From Mesoaciditoga lauensis cd-1655R = DSM 25116 (GTDB lineage: Bacteria; Thermotogota; Thermotogae; Mesoaciditogales; Mesoaciditogaceae), in NCBI RefSeq assembly GCF_000745455.1, contig NZ_JQJI01000016.1, positions 1-48,127 of the forward strand: a stretch of DNA of 48,127 bases, in the 5' to 3' direction. The notes under the pieces were generated by a model. It worked only from the letters and a program-made list of their open reading frames with translations. It was not told the DNA's origin and did not search any database. Made by a program: the position numbers and the translations under genes. Positions 1,773-46,258 of this stretch are shown here, one piece after another; within the stretch, counting starts at the first letter, position 1, and every line of letters starts with the position of its first letter.

Positions 1773-2216
1773 ACTCATATTGTGCGTGAACATTACGAAA
1801 GATATTACAAGAAGCATTAATCTCACTATGAGAGCATATGGACCATATTTGACGATATTTTGATTTAAAACCCGCTTTCCAATCAATCAAGGCATTTTTT
1901 CGAAGCACTTGTCAGAACGGATTCGCTCTTTTATCCATCTTACGACTCAAAAAACGAGGCACGCTCAGACACTCATCCATGAGTGCTTCGCTTTCTCAAC
2001 ACATCCGTGTGTTTCTCAACCTCGTTTTTATGAATCTTCAGATGGAACGCTCATATGTTCTGACAAGTGCTTCGAGGATTAGATTTAATTTCTTTTTGAT
2101 TAGCTTCGTGCTTTGTAGATGCTTTTCACGCATTTTTAGTCCCATTTTATTTAATTTGGTTGTTTGCAGTGTTTGGCGTTGATGATACTTTTTAACATCG
2201 ACGCACAATGTGAGTT
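1773..2216. mobile_element. Palindromic element copy A (MITE-like, Y-shaped core)
   Basis: A 444-bp non-coding element is bounded by inverted terminal repeats: ACTCATATTGTGCGTGAACA at 1773 and TAACATCGACGCACAATGTG at 2193. The core at 1900-2075 folds back on itself. Its first 19 bases pair perfectly with its last 19, a second stem joins GACTCAAAAAACGAGG to CCTCGTTTTTATGAATC, and the apex carries two hairpins, CACTCATCCATGAGTG and AACACATCCGTGTGTT, both with TCC in the loop. It has no coding capacity for a transposase, so movement would depend on enzymes from elsewhere. The orientation matches copy H. Confidence 0.7.
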
Positions 2217-2325
2217 GCATAATTCGAGTCTCTTAAAGGACAATAAACATTTTATAAATATTAAAATAAATGTTAAAATTATATAGACTCGATAGAGCCC
2301 AATTTGAACCGAGGAGGGGTTGAAT

Positions 2326-3882
2326 ATGAAAAAAACTGTCAAACTTTTATTGATGGTGATGGCAGTGGGAGTGGTTTTGATACTTTCTGGATGTTATCTT
2401 TTAAAACCACAAGCGCCCACGAATTTAACGGCAACGGCGTTAAGTGCTTCTTCCATAAAACTCACATGGCAAGGTAACGGTTCTTTTATCATTTACAGAT
2501 CTTTATCGCTGAGTGGTTCTCCTTTTTCTCAAGTGGCAACCACAGATTCAACAAACTATATTGATAACGGCTTGTCTCCCCGTACAACTTATTACTACAA
2601 AGTTGTGGCAAAAAATCAATTTGGCGTTTCCGATCCAAGTAATATAGCTTCAGCCACCACCAAGTTCATTTATAGCGTTTCTGGATATGTTCAAGACCAA
2701 TACGCTTATGGAATAGCAGACGTTACAATCAAGTTCAGTGGGGGATTTTCTCAGGTTACGACCGATCAAAACGGCCAATGGTCTAAAAGTGGACTAAGTG
2801 GAACGGTGGTTGTAACTCCGGAAAAAACAGGGTGGACGTTTGCACCTCCAAATACAACTGTTGCGTCCACTCAAACTCTGTATTTCGAAGGAATACGGAA
2901 CGCTTCAGTGGTGGCCTTTCCTGATCCGGTTTTGGATTCAATAATAAGATCTAAAATAGGAAAAGCAACTGGAGACATATACGTTTCTGATCTTACGCCA
3001 ATAGCTTCTATTGAAAACAATTGGCCTTCTCCTAACGAAAAGATAAGCAACCTTGAAGGAATCCAATATTGTGTGAATTTGAAGGAACTTGAAATTGTCG
3101 GTAACAACATCTCAAACATCTCTCAACTTGCCAGTTTAACACAGCTTCAAGTTGTGAATATTTGGTACAACAACGTGAGTGACATAACTCCAATTAAGAA
3201 CTTACCAAACATAAAAAAACTTTACATAAGTTATAATCCGATTCCAAAAAGCAATTGGGCATTTTTGAAAAACTGGACCTGGCTTGAAGAGTTGGGGATA
3301 GGAGGATTGGGCCTTATCAATAGTGACATCGCCTTTCTTCCAAGCTTTACAAATCTTATTTATCTAGATTTGAATAACAATTCAATAAGCGATATAAGCC
3401 CTGTGGCAAGCCTTACAAATTTGAGATATTTATTGATAGTAGGAAACAGGGGAGTACGTGATCTTTCACCAGTAGCAAGTTTGGTGAACTTGTACGATTT
3501 GAATATGGGAGACATAAGTGCAACCAATTTGGCTCCGTTGAAAGGATTGAAGAAATTGGAATCGTTATCGCTTTTTGATGATAACGTGGTGGATATATCT
3601 CCACTTGCCAGTTTAACCGCTTTGCGTTCAATATCCATGCAACACAACAAGATAAAGGATATTTCATCGTTAGAAGGATTGACTAACTTGGAAGGTTTAG
3701 ATCTTTCAGACAATGAAATAGAAGATATATCTCCACTTGTGAGAAATAACGGTATGAATTCTGGAGATTACGTTGATTTAAGAGAGAATTTATTAGATCT
3801 GACGCCTTCCTCCACAGCATTGAAAGATATAGAAACTCTTCAAAAAAGAGGCGTTACCGTTAAGTATCAACCACAAAAGTGA
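2326..3882 (+). CDS. Leucine-rich-repeat surface lipoprotein with FnIII domain
   Basis: A 518-residue exported protein. The start is ATG 2326, 8 bases after GAGGAGGGG; a TTG six bases upstream is less well placed. A lipoprotein signal ends in LSGC with the lipidated Cys at residue 23. A fibronectin type III domain (about 28-115, APTNLTATALSASSIKLTW to YYYKVVAKNQFG) is followed by a carboxypeptidase-regulatory-like beta domain (about 117-188) and about ten 22-residue leucine-rich repeats of the internalin/LRR_4 style (about 235-500; repeated LxxLxxLxLxxNxISDISPL). Such repeats form a curved protein- or glycan-binding surface, so an adhesion or binding role at the cell envelope is likely. It is paralogous to the minus-strand lipoprotein at 15557, sharing the unusual KSNWAFxKNWTWL segment. 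Confidence 0.8.
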   Translation: MKKTVKLLLMVMAVGVVLILSGCYLLKPQAPTNLTATALSASSIKLTWQGNGSFIIYRSLSLSGSPFSQVATTDSTNYIDNGLSPRTTYYYKVVAKNQFGVSDPSNIASATTKFIYSVSGYVQDQYAYGIADVTIKFSGGFSQVTTDQNGQWSKSGLSGTVVVTPEKTGWTFAPPNTTVASTQTLYFEGIRNASVVAFPDPVLDSIIRSKIGKATGDIYVSDLTPIASIENNWPSPNEKISNLEGIQYCVNLKELEIVGNNISNISQLASLTQLQVVNIWYNNVSDITPIKNLPNIKKLYISYNPIPKSNWAFLKNWTWLEELGIGGLGLINSDIAFLPSFTNLIYLDLNNNSISDISPVASLTNLRYLLIVGNRGVRDLSPVASLVNLYDLNMGDISATNLAPLKGLKKLESLSLFDDNVVDISPLASLTALRSISMQHNKIKDISSLEGLTNLEGLDLSDNEIEDISPLVRNNGMNSGDYVDLRENLLDLTPSSTALKDIETLQKRGVTVKYQPQK

Positions 3883-6053: not shown

Positions 6054-6119
6054 TTATGTAATCACTGGAAAGTGATAATTTAATCGGTGTGGAAAGGTGA
6101 TCATTGAAAAGAAAATTTT

Positions 6120-6286
6120 GAAGTTTTGTCAAAACTGATTCAGACGTATATCCATACAAGATGCTCATAACAGAGCCCGCTGCATACAAACGTCCTGTTA
6201 GATTCGCTTTCTCGGCACATCCTGTGCCTCCAGCTCTGTTCTTTCGCATCTTGTATGGCGTCTTCATATGTTTTGACAGAAACTTC
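6120..6286. repeat. Palindromic element copy C (strongly diverged core)
   Basis: This copy keeps the architecture with different letters. The outer arms GAAGTTTTGTCAAAAC (6120) and GTTTTGACAGAAACTTC (6270) pair. The middle stem is CCATACAAGATGC (6152) with GCATCTTGTATGG (6246), 13 perfect pairs, then AACAGAGC (6169) with GCTCTGTT (6233). One apical hairpin is GGCACATCCTGTGCC (6214-6228). The middle stem has no sequence match to copies A, B or D-H, yet sits in the same place and is fully paired. Confidence 0.65.
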
Positions 6287-6327
6287 AAAAAAGGGAAGAG
6301 AAAGAAGAAACAAAGCGTACTCAATAT

Positions 6328-6472
6328 TCTCAACACATCTGTGTTGTTTTCCAACCTCGTTTTTAGAGTCTTCAGATGGAGAGTTCATAAGTGCCGGCAA
6401 GTGTTTCGATAAAGGAGAAAAACTTCGAAGAGTGTAAGAATGAAAAACAAATAACACGTCCGTGTGTTTTTC
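6328..6472. repeat. Truncated half-copies of the palindromic element
   Basis: Bases 6328-6409 match the 3' half of copy B (hairpin AACACATCTGTGTT, then CCAACCTCGTTTTTAGAGTC and AGATGGAGAGTTCATAAGTG, ending at TCGA), with the 5' half missing. A further scrap with one hairpin, AACACGTCCGTGTGTT, lies at 6453-6468, only about 15 bases before the ribosome-binding site of the MIF-like gene. It is therefore part of that gene's leader. Confidence 0.55.
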
Positions 6473-6495: not shown

Positions 6496-6831
6496 ATGCC
6501 TTACTGTGGATTGCAAACAAATGCGAAAGTGGGAGATAAGGAGTCATTGGCCAAAAAGCTTTCTACCGTGGTTGCTCAAGAACTCGGAAAGCCTGAAATG
6601 TATGTTATGGTATCGGTTGAAGAAAAGGAAATGACTTTTGGGGGTAGCACGCAACCATGTGCTTTCGTCGATTTAAGGAGCATAGGTTTAACTTCTTCAC
6701 AAACTCCGAAGTTGTCAAAGGCCATATGTGATCTTTTGGAAGAAGAAATAGGAGTTAAGCCAGATAGAACTTATATAAGCTTTGCCGATGCCAAAGGATA
6801 CATGTGGGGATGGAATGGTTCCACTTTCTAG
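6496..6831 (+). CDS. MIF-like tautomerase
   Basis: A 111-residue protein of the macrophage migration inhibitory factor family, whose members form trimers and carry keto-enol tautomerase activity. The initiator Met is followed directly by Pro, the catalytic base once Met is removed. GKPEMYVMV carries the conserved Lys, FGGSTQPCAFVDLRSIG matches the MIF core FGGSxEPCAxxxLxSIG, PDRTYISF and the C-terminal GWNGSTF also match. The second Cys of the animal CxxC motif is Val here, so thiol oxidoreductase activity is not expected. The ribosome-binding site is AAGGGGGTGG at 6481-6490. It is flanked by palindromic elements on both sides. The physiological substrate is unknown. Confidence 0.85.
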   Translation: MPYCGLQTNAKVGDKESLAKKLSTVVAQELGKPEMYVMVSVEEKEMTFGGSTQPCAFVDLRSIGLTSSQTPKLSKAICDLLEEEIGVKPDRTYISFADAKGYMWGWNGSTF

Positions 6832-6875: not shown

Positions 6876-7230
6876 AATGTGCGTCGAGTTTAAGAATCTA
6901 AGTAGTGAGAAGTCATGAACGTTCCTAATAAAAGTTTTCATTCCTCGAAACACATGCTAGCACTTATGAACTCTCCATCTTGCGACTCATAAAAACGAGG
7001 CACGCTCAGACACTCATCCGTGAGTGCTTCGCTTTCTCAACACATCCGTGTGTTTTCCAACCTCATTTTTATGAGTCTTCAGATGGAGAGTTCATAAGTG
7101 CTAGCATGTGTTTCGAAAAAAGCATTTTGCTTGTAAAGCACTAAAAACCTTCAAAGTACTGTATTTCTCTTTCAAAGATTGCTTTTTCGCACTGACAAAA
7201 ATCGTTACTTTCACGCATCTTAGCAACACT
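6876..7230. mobile_element. Palindromic element copy B, with a 36-bp perfect outer stem
   Basis: The core at 6945-7116 is the cleanest example. Bases 6945-6980 are exactly complementary to 7081-7116 (36 pairs, starting TCGAAACACATGCTAGCACT). After a 3x3 mismatch, 6984-7000 pairs with 7061-7077 (one mismatch). The 60-base apex holds hairpins CACTCATCCGTGAGTG (7011-7026) and AACACATCCGTGTGTT (7039-7054). Decayed terminal repeats are visible outside it: AATGTGCGTCGAGTTTAA near 6877 and GTTACTTTCACGCATC near 7204. It sits between two convergent genes, so it could affect both transcript ends. Confidence 0.7.
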
Positions 7231-12790: not shown

Positions 12791-13052
12791 AACTCACATT
12801 GTGCGTCGATGTTACAAAGCATTTCAAAAAGAAATTAAATCTCACCCTTGAAGTACTTGTCAGAACATATGAGCTCTCCAGCTGGAAATTCAAAATATGA
12901 GGTTGAGAGACACAGGATGTGCCGAGAAAGCGAAGCACTCATGGACGAGCGTCTGAGCGTGCCTCATATTTTGAATTGTAAGATGGAAAAAAGAGCGAAT
13001 CCGTTCTGACAGGACTTCGAAAAAATTGTCTTTCGTAATGTTTACACACAAC
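12791..13052. mobile_element. Palindromic element copy D
   Basis: The copy is bounded by AACTCACATTGTGCGTCGAT (12791) and GTAATGTTTACACACAAC (13035). The core at 12849-13020 has outer arms GTACTTGTCAGAAC / GTTCTGACAGGAC, a stem TTCAAAATATGAGG / CCTCATATTTTGAA, and apical hairpins around CAGGATG and CATGGACG. It lies between two divergent genes, downstream of nothing, so it can affect only upstream regions here. The orientation is opposite to copies A and H and the same as E and F. Confidence 0.7.
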
Positions 13053-15129: not shown

Positions 15130-15481
15130 AACTCATTCTCTGTGTCGATGTTACAAAGCATTTCAAAAAGGGATTAAACCTCACCCTCGAAGTACTTGTC
15201 AGAACATATGAGCTCTCCATCTGAAGATTCAAAATATGAGGTTGAGAGGCACAGGACGTGCCGAGAAAGCGAAGCACTCACGGACGAGTGTCTGAGCGTG
15301 CCTCATATTTTGGATTGTAAGATGGAAAGAAGAGCGAATCCGTTCTGACAGGGCTTCGAAAAAATGTGTTGGTCGCTTGGAGAGCAGATCCTAATTTAAA
15401 TGTTGTATTCAAATATTGCTCGAATGTTCCCATAGAGAACCTAATATTTCTTGTGATACCTTGGTAATGTTTATGTACAAG
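15130..15481. mobile_element. Palindromic element copy E
   Basis: Terminal repeats are AACTCATTCTCTGTGTCGAT (15130) and GTAATGTTTATGTACAAG (15464). The core at 15187-15359 has hairpins GGCACAGGACGTGCC and CACTCACGGACGAGTG. The right arm contains TTGGTCGCTTGGAGAGC, the complement of a stretch in the left arm of copy H, so D/E/F and A/H are the same element in opposite orientation. It starts two bases after the thiolase stop and ends between convergent genes. Confidence 0.7.
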
Positions 15482-15501
15482 ATAAATAAAAAAGTAAATC
15501 T

Positions 15502-15528
15502 AAAAAGAGGGGGTATCCCCCTCTTTTT
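15502..15528 (-). terminator. Bidirectional intrinsic terminator
   Basis: AAAAAGAGGGGG-TAT-CCCCCTCTTTTT is a 12-bp stem with A- and T-tracts, so it terminates from both sides. It serves the minus-strand LRR lipoprotein gene (stop at 15557) and would also catch transcripts from the thiolase gene. Confidence 0.85.
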
Positions 15529-15556
15529 TATTATTTCAACCAATCAACGATTGATA

Positions 15557-16852
15557 TCACTGATTTTGTGGGTTGTAAGATACCGCAACGTTTCTATTTA
15601 GAAGCGTTTGAATGTTGTTCATGTCAACAGATCCTGGTGTTAGATCAAGGAAATTATATCGTATATCTAGAAAATCGTAACTATTCAAACCAGAGTTTTT
15701 GACCAACGGCGATATGTCTTCAATTTTGTTGTCTTCAAGCACTAATTGTTTAATATTTACGAGATTCTGGAAAGGCTTTGTGTCGACAATTTGATTACTC
15801 TCAAACCATACATTAACGAGGTTTACAAGATTTTGCAATGGTGATGCATCGCTGATTTTGTTGTCATCGAGTTGCAAATCTTCGAGACTCGTAAGATTTT
15901 TTAACGGTGATATATCGCTGATCTGGTTGTGGTCAATCCATAGTACTTGAAGATTTGAAAAATTGGATAAAAATGTTATATCCTGATTTTCAAGGTTCAT
16001 GTCGCGAAGACCGAGTATTTTAAGCCAAGTCCAATTTTTTACAAAAGCCCAGTTGGATTTTGGTATCATATTTCCACCAATGTACACTTTTTCAAGATTG
16101 GTGAGGTTTTGTATGAGACCTAAATCGGTGATTTTGTTGTATGACATGTTTAGACATTTAAGGCCAGATAGATTATGTAATGCCGTAATGTTACTGACTT
16201 GATTGTAAGAGAATCCTAAATATTGAAGGCTTGTAAGATTTTGCAGGGGCGTTATATCGCTTACTTGATTGCAGCAAAGCTCCAATATTTCAAGATGCGT
16301 CAAGCTTGCCAATTGAGAAATAGTAGAAATGTTGTTGCGATATAAATTTAAAGTCTTCAAATTAAGACAATATTGAATTCCTTCCAAATCGGATATCCTT
16401 TTTGAACTAAATTGGTTGAAATTCTCGAGGGTGGTTATTTGAAGTAAATCCGATTCGTAGATGGGACCTGTTGGTTTGTTAATAGCTTCTCTTATCACTC
16501 TCAGAAGGTTAAGATCCACAATTTTTCCAGAAAGATCCGTTTCCTTCGTTCCCGCAAAATTAACATCACTTTTTGAGCTGCTCACAACCATACTTGGAGG
16601 GTTAAAAGTATATCCTACCAAAGATGGCGTAATGGTAACTTCTCCCATCAATCCTTCTTTGGACCAATATCCATTTGAATTTGTTGTTGTGTCAGACGAG
16701 CCGTTGCTAAAGGATATTGTGACCCCTATCAAAGGATTTCCAGACGAATCTTTCACATATCCGGACACGTTGTATGTCAGCAAAAAACAGGATGATAGGA
16801 TAAATGATATGATTGCTACTCCTACAAGTAGCGCTAATTTTCTTTTTCTCAC
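15557..16852 (-). CDS. Leucine-rich-repeat surface lipoprotein
   Basis: A 431-residue exported protein. The lipoprotein signal MRKRKLALLVGVAIISFILS ends in LSSC with the lipidated Cys at residue 22. A carboxypeptidase-regulatory-like beta domain (about 28-102, NVSGYVKDSSGNPLIGVTIS) is followed by about eleven internalin-like leucine-rich repeats (about 155-410; LxxLxxLxLxxNxISDISPL). It has the order of the lipoprotein at 2326 but without the fibronectin domain, and shares the KSNWAFVKNWTWLKILGL segment, so the two arose by duplication. A binding role at the cell surface is likely; the ligand is unknown. It has its own promoter with a leader of about 135 bases. Confidence 0.8.
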   Translation of the reverse strand: MRKRKLALLVGVAIISFILSSCFLLTYNVSGYVKDSSGNPLIGVTISFSNGSSDTTTNSNGYWSKEGLMGEVTITPSLVGYTFNPPSMVVSSSKSDVNFAGTKETDLSGKIVDLNLLRVIREAINKPTGPIYESDLLQITTLENFNQFSSKRISDLEGIQYCLNLKTLNLYRNNISTISQLASLTHLEILELCCNQVSDITPLQNLTSLQYLGFSYNQVSNITALHNLSGLKCLNMSYNKITDLGLIQNLTNLEKVYIGGNMIPKSNWAFVKNWTWLKILGLRDMNLENQDITFLSNFSNLQVLWIDHNQISDISPLKNLTSLEDLQLDDNKISDASPLQNLVNLVNVWFESNQIVDTKPFQNLVNIKQLVLEDNKIEDISPLVKNSGLNSYDFLDIRYNFLDLTPGSVDMNNIQTLLNRNVAVSYNPQNQ

Positions 16853-17126: not shown

Positions 17127-17275
17127 CTGCCGCTTGATGTGAGAAATATCGACGGAGCCGTTTTATATAAAAAGTCTACCCCCATTGGTGGAAGAAGTGT
17201 CGGCAAAGCCATTTTTATATAAGAAGTCTGCCCTCACTTGTGGGAGAAGTGTCGGCGGAGCCGACGAAGGGGGAT
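17127..17275. repeat. Degenerate tandem array of a two-hairpin repeat
   Basis: Three diverged units follow each other: about 17127-17166, 17172-17215 and 17224-17275. They are joined by direct repeats like TTTATATAAxAAGTCT. The last is the most complete: GTCTGCCCTCACTTGTGGGA, then GTCGGCGGAGCCGAC, then GAAGGGGGAT. It is the same family as the single copies at 24969 and 37296, but the second hairpin is GTCGGC/GCCGAC here and GGCAGC/GCTGCC there, so pairing is kept while letters differ. The rest of the 16853-17526 gap holds the LRR promoter and a terminator, and no convincing gene. Confidence 0.6.
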
Positions 17276-18108: not shown

Positions 18109-18256
18109 GGTATTATTAATAATTTGGTTAAAATTAATGGTTTTTATCAATCTTTTTAGTGCGGGTAAAACATGCCAATTCTCTATTTTGTCTGTTGTTG
18201 TAGTTCTACAAAATCATCCCGAAATACCTTGTTATCAAGTAAAAGAACAAGCATCC

Positions 18257-18430
18257 TCGAAGTACTTGTCAGAACATATGAGCTCTCCATCTGGAAATTC
18301 ATAAATATGAGGTTGAGAGGCACAGGACGTGCCGGGAAAGCGAAGCACTCATGGACGAGTGTCTGAGCGTGCCTCATATTTTGAATTGTAAGATGGAAAG
18401 AAGAGCGAAACCGTTCTGACAGGACTTCGA
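18257..18430. repeat. Palindromic element copy F (core only)
   Basis: The core starts TCGAAGTACTTGTCAGAAC and ends GTTCTGACAGGACTTCGA. Stems and hairpins (GGCACAGGACGTGCC; CACTCATGGACGAGTG) match copies D and E. The terminal repeats seen in other copies are not recognisable here. It lies between divergent genes upstream of addA. A spurious 64-residue ORF on the minus strand is only the translated palindrome. Confidence 0.65.
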
Positions 18431-18564
18431 AAAAAAATCAGCTTCACCTTTTGGAAAGCGGTAGTAAAATGTCAAAGGACGCTATCATTCGAAATATGTT
18501 ATCCACACAAATTCGCAGAGAACTAAATTAATTCTTCTTAGCCAATTCCTTTTGGAAGAAAACT

Positions 18565-24839: not shown

Positions 24840-24868
24840 ATGCTGATGTAAGTGGTGAAAGCAATTTT

Positions 24869-24960
24869 TCGAAGCCCTATCAGAACGGATTCGCTCTGAC
24901 AAGTACGTCGAAGGTGGGATTTAATCCTTTTTGAATACCCTGTTACATCGGCGCACGACG
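24869..24960. repeat. Palindromic element copy G (deleted remnant)
   Basis: Only the base of the stem remains: TCGAAGCCCTATCAGAACGG is joined directly to TGACAAGTACGTCGA (to 24911), with the whole apex missing. It is followed by GTGGGATTTAATCCTTTTTG and the terminal repeat TGTTACATCGGCGCACGACG (24941-24960), as in copy H. A precise loss of the apex suggests deletion between paired arms during replication. Confidence 0.6.
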
Positions 24961-24968
24961 TTAATAAT

Positions 24969-25020
24969 AAGTCTGCCCCCGCTTGTGGGGGAAGTGGTAG
25001 CAGAGCTGCCGAAGGGGGAT
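24969..25020. repeat. Two-hairpin dispersed repeat
   Basis: AAGTCTGCCCCCGCTTGTGG, then GGTAGCAGAGCTGCC and GAAGGGGGA. It forms two adjacent hairpins (CCCCCGC/GTGGGGG and GGTAGC/GCTGCC). It differs from the copy at 37296 in two bases only, both keeping G-T wobble pairs, and has the same orientation. A further small hairpin, GTGGA-CTAC-TCCAC, follows at 25027-25040. No gene lies between 24840 and 25175. Confidence 0.65.
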
Positions 25021-37234: not shown

Positions 37235-37295
37235 AACCGAATTTGCCTCGTAAATCAAGAAAGGATACTCAAGAGAGCCACATTCCAAATTGAAA

Positions 37296-37345
37296 AGTCT
37301 GCCCCCGCTTGCGGGGGAAGTGGCAGCAGAGCTGCCGAAGGGGGA
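37296..37345. repeat. Two-hairpin dispersed repeat before the PfkB gene
   Basis: AGTCTGCCCCCGCTTGCGGG, then GGCAGCAGAGCTGCC and GAAGGGGGA form two stable hairpins (CCCCCGC/GCGGGGG and GGCAGC/GCTGCC). It ends 21 bases before the ribosome-binding site of the next gene, so it lies in that gene's leader or promoter region. It is open in frame with the kinase, which produces a false N-terminal extension if the gene is started at 37290. Confidence 0.7.
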
Positions 37346-40523: not shown

Positions 40524-40836
40524 AACTCATGTTGTGCGTCGATGTTAAGCAATTAACAAAAGGCTAATAAAAACAGCAAATAAGGCCTTGTTCAATGCGA
40601 AATAAAATTTTCTGTTTTTCTCTTAAATTCTTGAATCACAAAGAAAAATGCAAAAAATACATTTTGTTGTTCCCAAAATAGACGTGATGACATTCAAGGA
40701 GAATGGATTATTTTGTTCAAATCAAATTTACTTAATGAGACTTAATGAGTTTGTCTTTTTTCAGATTTTATGGGCTTTTAGAATGATTCGCTTTGCATCT
40801 CTATTACTTCCTTAATCTTCACGCACAACGTGAGTT
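40524..40836. mobile_element. Element I: terminal repeats without the Y-shaped core
   Basis: AACTCATGTTGTGCGTCGAT (40524) and CTTCACGCACAACGTGAGTT (40817) are inverted relative to each other, with 16 of 20 positions matching. The 270 bases between them are AT-rich, non-coding and contain no sign of the Y-shaped palindrome. TTAATGAGACTTAATGAG is a short tandem repeat inside (about 40731-40749). It fills the space between the tRNA gene and mnmG and ends about 20 bases before the mnmG ribosome-binding site. Confidence 0.6.
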
Positions 40837-45887: not shown

Positions 45888-46258
45888 AACTCACGTTGTG
45901 CACGAATATTACGAAAGGTATTACAAGAGACATTAAAAAATTCTATGAATCTATGAAAACGTGGGAGCAACACATTGAAATACAATCCTTTTTGATTTAA
46001 AACCCGCTCTCCAAGCGACCAAGGCAATTTTTTTCGAAGTTCCTGTCAGAACGGATTCGCTCTTCTTTCCGTCTTCTTAATTCAAAATATGAGGCACGCT
46101 CAGACACTCGTCCGTGAGTGCTTCGCTTTCTCGGCACGTCCTGTGCCTCTCAACCTCATATTTTGAATCTTCAGCCGGAGAGCTCATATGTTCTGACAAG
46201 TACTTCGAGGGTGGGATTTAATCCTTTTTGAAATACTCTGTAACATCGACGCACAAGT
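45888..46258. mobile_element. Palindromic element copy H (most complete)
   Basis: A 371-bp element between AACTCACGTTGTGCACGAAT (45888) and GTAACATCGACGCACAAGTT (46240). The core at 46034-46208 has arms TCGAAGTTCCTGTCAGAAC and GTTCTGACAAGTACTTCGA, a stem AATTCAAAATATGAGG / CCTCATATTTTGAATC and hairpins CACTCGTCCGTGAGTG and GGCACGTCCTGTGCC. The flanks carry CCGCTCTCCAAGCGACCAAG and GTGGGATTTAATCC, also present in copies A, E and G. It lies between convergent genes. A TCCA/CCA match just outside the ends could be a short target duplication but is too short to trust. Confidence 0.75.

Follow-up and report, generated by a model that had tools for sequence, protein, structure and literature searches.

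Dispersed palindromic repeats of Mesoaciditoga lauensis resemble the TwoAYGGAY RNA and are candidate CsrA-binding elements

We examined a family of palindromic repeats in a 48,127-nucleotide stretch of DNA from the heat-loving Mesoaciditoga lauensis (contig NZ_JQJI01000016.1; hereafter the window), a single contig of a 2.17-Mb genome, and found that one of them, copy B, matches the TwoAYGGAY RNA family of Rfam (RF01731) on its minus strand. About 190 copies of the palindrome lie dispersed and intergenic in this genome of the Mesoaciditogaceae (Thermotogota), and they belong to three homologous subfamilies: two main ones, the B-type and the H-type, and the P module, a third that has diverged further. 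We consider it reasonably probable that the repeats carry a TwoAYGGAY-type RNA that is borne on transposon-like units as well as on other repeats, drifts in sequence, is selected for its fold, is at times rewritten by template switching and is bound by the regulator CsrA.

Copy B scored 46.6 bits against RF01731 (cut-off 43) over the full length of the model; fast filters missed this match, which was returned by a lax scan of a short region. The other B-type copies scanned reached 26-29 bits on the same strand, below the cut-off. MicroRNA families also appeared in the lax scan and were rejected as generic long-hairpin matches below their cut-offs. A model that we built from the Mesoaciditogaceae repeats with copy B excluded, R1, gives the six full copies of the window 100-112 bits on the strand that bears GGA in its loops (the GGA strand); the opposite strand, where it is listed at all, gets 13-22 bits. 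As in TwoAYGGAY RNA (Weinberg et al. 2010, PMC2864571), there is a long outer stem with two adjacent hairpins whose AYGGAY-type loops lie on the same strand. The present repeats differ in numbering about 190 copies in a single genome, in forming three subfamilies, one of them in transposon-like units, and in that most copies score under the cut-off of the RF01731 model as it stands. The occurrences listed in 2010 are human gut, Gammaproteobacteria and Clostridiales (PMC2864571).

The complementary strand folds into a long imperfect stem with two adjacent hairpins, HP1 and HP2, on top, and GGA stands in their loops in a CANGGANG or CAGGANG context. From about 192 core matches we extracted 126 copies, of which 122 were aligned. 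The HP1 loop fits CANGGANG in 119 of the 122; the HP2 loop is CANGGANG in 60 and CAGGANG in 59, and retains GGA in 120. B-type copies have AYGGAY in both loops and H-type copies have AYGGAY and AGGAY, giving the pair of adjacent hairpins that characterizes TwoAYGGAY. At the three GGA columns of each loop we counted 0-2 changes, as against 31, 24, 15 and 8 at the flanking N columns. The two strands of the palindrome are also unequal. Predicted stability favors the GGA strand in 121 of 122 copies (mean -74.5 vs -65.3 kcal/mol), and on average in every genus tested; the UCC strand, less stable in those 121 copies and low in model score where listed, was rejected as the RNA. Among stem changes, those compatible with G-U pairing are likewise commoner for the GGA strand (111:74 in all; 56:20 when only the middle and inner stems are counted), and unpaired columns have no comparable wobble-type bias. 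Since the events are not independent and a per-pair sign test of the wobble bias is weak (p 0.07), we take this bias as supporting evidence only. Together, the strand asymmetries point to the complementary strand being folded as RNA.

The core of the element, GAGGCACGCTCAGACACTC, has 192 matches in the genome at three mismatches or fewer and 0-10 matches in each of the other genomes of the Mesoaciditogaceae; all but one of the 126 extracted copies lie outside gene calls. Judged by the gene adjoining copy B, the genome has its nearest named relatives among Mesoaciditogaceae and other Thermotogota assemblies. P modules alternate with B-type copies in arrays with a period of roughly 290-330 bp, and copy A is a chimera between subfamilies, with a B-type core inside H-type outer arms. 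We infer that the subfamilies exchange cores. At one locus (L050, G000:C64:33666) the core is inverted relative to its own flanks, and at another (L120) the 3' flank is present on either side; these layouts probably arose by inversion or recombination through the outer stem. At a further locus (L109, around 1107) a second hairpin repeat, GATCCTGAATCAAGTTCAGGATGACA, interrupts an H-type copy.

An earlier note on the window had read the paired differences between copies as either selection for the fold or correction of one arm by the other. Both occur, at different time-scales, and the choice is not an exclusive one. The alternative HP2 stems on which that note drew (AACAC/GTGTT and GGCAC/GTGCC) are present in the sequence, as is the distinct 13-bp middle stem of its copy C, a P module, and in the 122-copy alignment several pairs differ between B-type and H-type copies on both sides, yet stay paired. 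With other genera added to the core alignment (24 sequences), 94.6% of cells are paired and both partners change in 11 of 31 pairs; with the partners slid by 1-3 columns as a control, only 28-48% of cells are paired and 1-4 pairs have changes on both sides. In a tree analysis, double changes on the same branch number 15, against a null of 6.7 +/- 2.4 in which none of 500 shuffles exceeded 14. Pairing is kept in 11 of the 15. The test is weakened because copies exchange between subfamilies and change recurs. Four clean orthologous pairs from two species of the genus contain 16 one-sided changes that break a pair, 10 one-sided changes that are tolerated, one double change that is broken and one that stays paired, the last being a transversion (CCATCAC/GTGATGG vs CCAGCAC/GTGCTGG). 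The one-sided changes rule out tight arm-to-arm coupling within subfamilies. Independent drift of the arms, the outcome that the earlier note had held against its own proposal, is therefore partly what the tree and the orthologous pairs reveal, and the long-term covariation stands. Selection for pairing is visible across subfamilies and genera over long times; short-term evolution is loose, and the arms mostly drift independently.

Arm correction is clearest in copy B. The 36-bp perfect outer stem attributed to it is there, and it is by a wide margin the longest perfect stem among the 126 copies (next 21, 20 and 19 bp; mode 9). The 5' arm of every other B-type copy seen resembles GCCAGCACGGATTCACTCTTTTATCCATC; copy B alone has GCTAGCACTTATGAACTCTCCATC, which is the exact complement of its own 3' arm and so makes the 36 perfect pairs. 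The best match of this 5' arm is that same 3' arm (score 33), the best other 5' arm scoring 24, and its CTAGC variant, shared with its own 3' arm, is found in two 3' arms only. The adjoining internal loop was left unrewritten. These features argue that the reverse complement of the 3' arm took the place of the original 5' arm, a clear case of a template-switching footprint. Template switching is known to create and repair hairpins in RNA genes (Monttinen and Loytynoja 2022, PMC8794818). Copy B resembles those cases in that a single mutation event would have produced a perfect stem, and differs in that such an event was observed in just one of the 126 dispersed copies of a single element. In the sister genomes, the locus corresponding to that of copy B yielded no B element. 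A further contrast drawn in the earlier note, CTTATGAAC in copy B against CTTGTCAGAAC in copies A and H, cannot stand as a paired change, because the two segments are out of register: CTTGTCAGAAC/GTTCTGACAAG aligns with the GCTAGCA segment of copy B, and CTTATGAAC/GTTCATAAG has its homologue in the GGATTCACTC/GAGTTCATAA segment that other B-type copies carry.

H-type copies are embedded in larger units. Their flanks are conserved out to terminal inverted repeats of about 24 bp, ACTCATGTTGTGCGTGAACATTAC and ACTCACATTGTGCGTCAATGTTAC, with ends written ACTCA(C/T)(A/G)TTGTGCGTG. Both ends are present in 43 units, 36 of which bear the core, and an exact 5-bp direct repeat lies immediately outside 16 of the 43, where 0.2 are expected from mismatched flanks. 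Given the terminal inverted repeats and the 5-bp target duplications, we regard the H-type units as miniature transposons. They resemble miniature inverted-repeat transposable elements in these two features and in size (mostly about 340-370 bp), and they differ in having a conserved structured RNA core, in that B-type and P-type copies of the same family are without the H terminal repeats, and in the matter of a parent: a transposase with these ends was not seen in the loci read, the whole genome not having been searched. No clean empty site was obtained in the sister species, where the orthologous H sites found hold truncated or rearranged elements. Units of about 300 bp with similar ends and no core also exist. 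One such core-less unit, 311 bp long with terminal repeats ACTCA..TGAGT, lies in the window at 40525-40835, and exact copies of its end ACTCACGTTGTGCGTGAAGATTAA are found elsewhere in this genome and in that of the sister species, in some cases close to the end of a contig.

The element extends beyond the Mesoaciditogaceae. RF01731 scores in all five genomes found of a genus from another Thermotogota family of the same class (g10), with several copies in most of them. R1 reaches this genus at up to 57.5 bits and gives 29.3 bits to a locus there that is positive for RF01731 (G015:C25), making the match reciprocal. It also finds one genome of a further genus in that family (39 bits) and, in a third family, two weak matches at 30 bits. 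The units that contain the g10 copies end differently (GTGTCCAATTAGTAAAGT...ACTTTACTTTTTGGACAC) and have direct repeats of about 9-12 bp, as judged by eye. At the loci read in other families the junction AAAGCGAAGC...GTCTGAGCG is kept, with hairpin stems that differ widely in their letters, such as CACTTC/GAAGTG and TTCCCC/GGGGAA, under CANGGANG loops. At one locus of another family (L212, in G013), a weak R1 match at about 404-483 falls in a palindrome predicted to be very stable (-101.8 kcal/mol), which has two GGA loops and whose outer stem measures about 20 bp.

High copy number, terminal repeats and target duplications are also what plain selfish miniature transposons would present. Their palindrome would be kept by copying at the DNA level (template switching, arm homogenization and transposition of intact copies) with no RNA function selected. 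The one clear arm correction in copy B and the fact that most recent stem changes are unrepaired fit this account, and intact copies would be over-represented if those are the ones that spread. Selfish copying leaves unexplained, however, why GGA is kept in the loops while neighboring positions vary, why the strands differ in folding and wobble changes, and why one and the same core is found within different arms and, in another family, in a unit whose ends differ. We therefore consider it unlikely, if worth keeping in view.

If the repeat is an RNA with selected GGA loops, CsrA is a candidate partner. Gardner and Eldai (2014, PMC4333381) matched TwoAYGGAY to a CsrA-binding motif, predicting that it binds CsrA and that such RNAs occur outside Gammaproteobacteria; we found no test of this prediction for TwoAYGGAY in the literature. 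The host has csrA, which adjoins and directly follows a gene that we name fliW from its translated sequence, and the repeats have the paired apical GGA loops in CANGGANG context. In Campylobacter jejuni, the flaA leader, which titrates CsrA, has two adjacent GGA loops, likened to CANGGANG hexaloops, 21 bases apart (PMC4894983). Counted on the sequences, the GGA-to-GGA spacing in the repeats is 24-25 bases. GGA apical loops in adjacent hairpins are thus common to the repeats, the flaA leader and the CsrA-sequestering RNAs (CsrB/C and RsmX/Y/Z). The repeats differ from these in being dispersed rather than encoded by one gene and in showing no sequence homology to them, and their CsrA binding is predicted. 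On the strength of the 2014 prediction, the presence of CsrA and a putative FliW in the host, and the likeness to the flaA leader, we judge CsrA binding the most likely role of the repeat RNA, at somewhat better than an even chance.

Several observations weigh against the proposal of a fold-selected, CsrA-bound, partly transposon-borne TwoAYGGAY-type RNA. No copy besides B was seen to reach the RF01731 cut-off, and an H-type locus scanned with that model gave no match at E 10; copy B alone passes probably because of its perfect stem. About a quarter of the P-type apices found are without GGA in HP2, mostly having CGA. Wobble changes in the outer stem have no strand preference (41:40), and the tree contains 204 single changes that break a pair. 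Only a minority of units keep a recognizable target duplication. csrA is present in two relatives that lack the element (G007 and G009) and was not found in an incomplete relative that carries it (G008). Finally, B-type copies at co-directional sites have their GGA strand antisense to the genes on either side in 30 of 31 cases, and no promoter for the GGA strand was identified. The antisense bias, which speaks against transcription by simple read-through, may reflect either promoters of the copies' own or the loss of copies with GGA on the sense strand, since those would recruit CsrA.

The same orientation bias, together with the position of B-type copies mostly downstream of genes (median about 130 bases from the preceding stop) and the very stable fold, could instead indicate a structured RNA with a role other than CsrA binding, such as protection of mRNA 3' ends, RNase III processing, termination or antisense control. 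We regard this as improbable: it does not explain why two GGA loops in CANGGANG context are kept across families, and H-type copies have no orientation bias (14:13). Terminators or 3'-end signals are not supported for all copies, as the genes on either side of H-type copies are often divergent (24 of the 59 copies with context). A DNA site that folds as a cruciform or single-strand hairpin and is recognized by a transposase or recombinase, as in the repetitive extragenic palindromic (REP) elements with their REP-associated tyrosine transposases (RAYT) or integron attC sites, would suit a palindromic, multicopy element in mosaic arrays with some cores seemingly inverted relative to their flanks (L050), but is very improbable, since the conserved loops match an RNA family, the loci read contain no transposase with these terminal repeats, and the core is not needed as a transposon end because the H chassis has terminal repeats of its own. 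REP elements and bacterial interspersed mosaic elements do share intergenic palindromes, mosaic arrays and more than 100 copies with the present repeats, which differ in their much longer multi-branched fold and RNA-type loops.

Under the TwoAYGGAY-type RNA model, copies would have spread by transposition. Their stems would diverge mainly through one-sided drift, with long-term selection for pairing in the RNA strand, core exchange between subfamilies adding to the divergence and, rarely, one arm rewriting the other by template switching. One CsrA dimer is predicted to bind across both loops, and in this CsrA-FliW bacterium any transcribed copy would either titrate CsrA or bring neighboring transcripts under its control. 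Tentatively, and with less confidence than in the model itself, we suggest that TwoAYGGAY may be cargo of unrelated miniature transposons across Thermotogota, and that the roughly 190 copies of one genome, which together hold up to about 380 CsrA-type sites, may form an RNA decoy network acting on the CsrA-FliW switch. TwoAYGGAY has had no assigned function since 2010, and a genome with about 190 copies, csrA-fliW and relatives in other families offers natural variation in the loops. If the model is true, a class of miniature transposons is tied to a global RNA regulator, and a CsrB-like RNA antagonist becomes possible in a CsrA-FliW bacterium. The repeats also place compensatory change, one-sided drift and template-switch repair side by side on one stem. 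Table 1 gives the positions of the copies in the window.

Table 1. Repeat copies and their parts in the window, with model scores.
Feature	Position	Strand	Evidence
Copy B, palindromic element of the B subfamily	6945..7116	-	RF01731 46.6 bits (cut-off 43), 1-168/168; R1 101.2 bits at 6984-7077(-); 36-bp perfect stem
Copy B 5' arm, rewritten tract, exact reverse complement of 3' arm 7081-7116	6945..6980	.	Unique among 126 copies
Copy B apical hairpin HP1, CANGGANG loop (CACTCACGGATGAGTG)	7011..7028 (approximate)	-	CANGGANG in HP1 of 119/122 copies
Copy B apical hairpin HP2, CANGGANG loop (AACACACGGATGTGTT)	7038..7056 (approximate)	-	GGA kept in 120/122 copies; flanking N positions vary
Copy A, H-type outer arms and B-type core	1895..2076	-	R1 109.9 bits at 1944-2036(-)
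P module (copy C of the earlier note), different middle stem, GGA loops	6116..6290	-	R1 58.5 bits at 6160-6250(-); RF01731 19.8 bits
Truncated B-type copy after P module	6313..6409 (start approximate)	-	Repeat family D2/D3; R1 18.3 bits at 6281-6370(-)
H-type copy, one recognizable terminal inverted repeat (12792-12815)	12792..13025	+	R1 100.6 bits at 12887-12977(+)
H-type copy	15130..15365	+	R1 106.1 bits at 15226-15316(+)
H-type copy	18252..18436	+	R1 111.6 bits at 18296-18387(+)
Deletion derivative, H-type outer arms remaining alone	24867..24920	.	Repeat family D7
H-type copy in transposon-like unit, terminal inverted repeat at 45889	45889..46258	-	R1 108.5 bits at 46079-46169(-)

Other features of the window were observed in passing. 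Beside an H-type copy, positions 15467-15566 match the sraA RNA family below threshold on either strand, at 38.2 and 27.7 bits where the cut-off is 56. A different hairpin repeat, AAGTCTGCCCCCGCTTGTGGGGGAAGTG...GCAGAGCTGCCGAAGGGGG, is dispersed at 17161-17274, 24958-25019 and 37284-37345. Two leucine-rich-repeat proteins are encoded at 2320-3882 and 15557-16852, of which one has a fibronectin type III domain and the other carboxypeptidase-regulatory-like domains, and a protein encoded at 26786-27853 matches the type I restriction domain HSDR_N and the SeqA C-terminal domain. The gene at 6496-6831 encodes a homologue of macrophage migration inhibitory factor (MIF; Pfam PF01187, E 1.9e-23); to our knowledge, MIF homologues are uncommon in bacteria.
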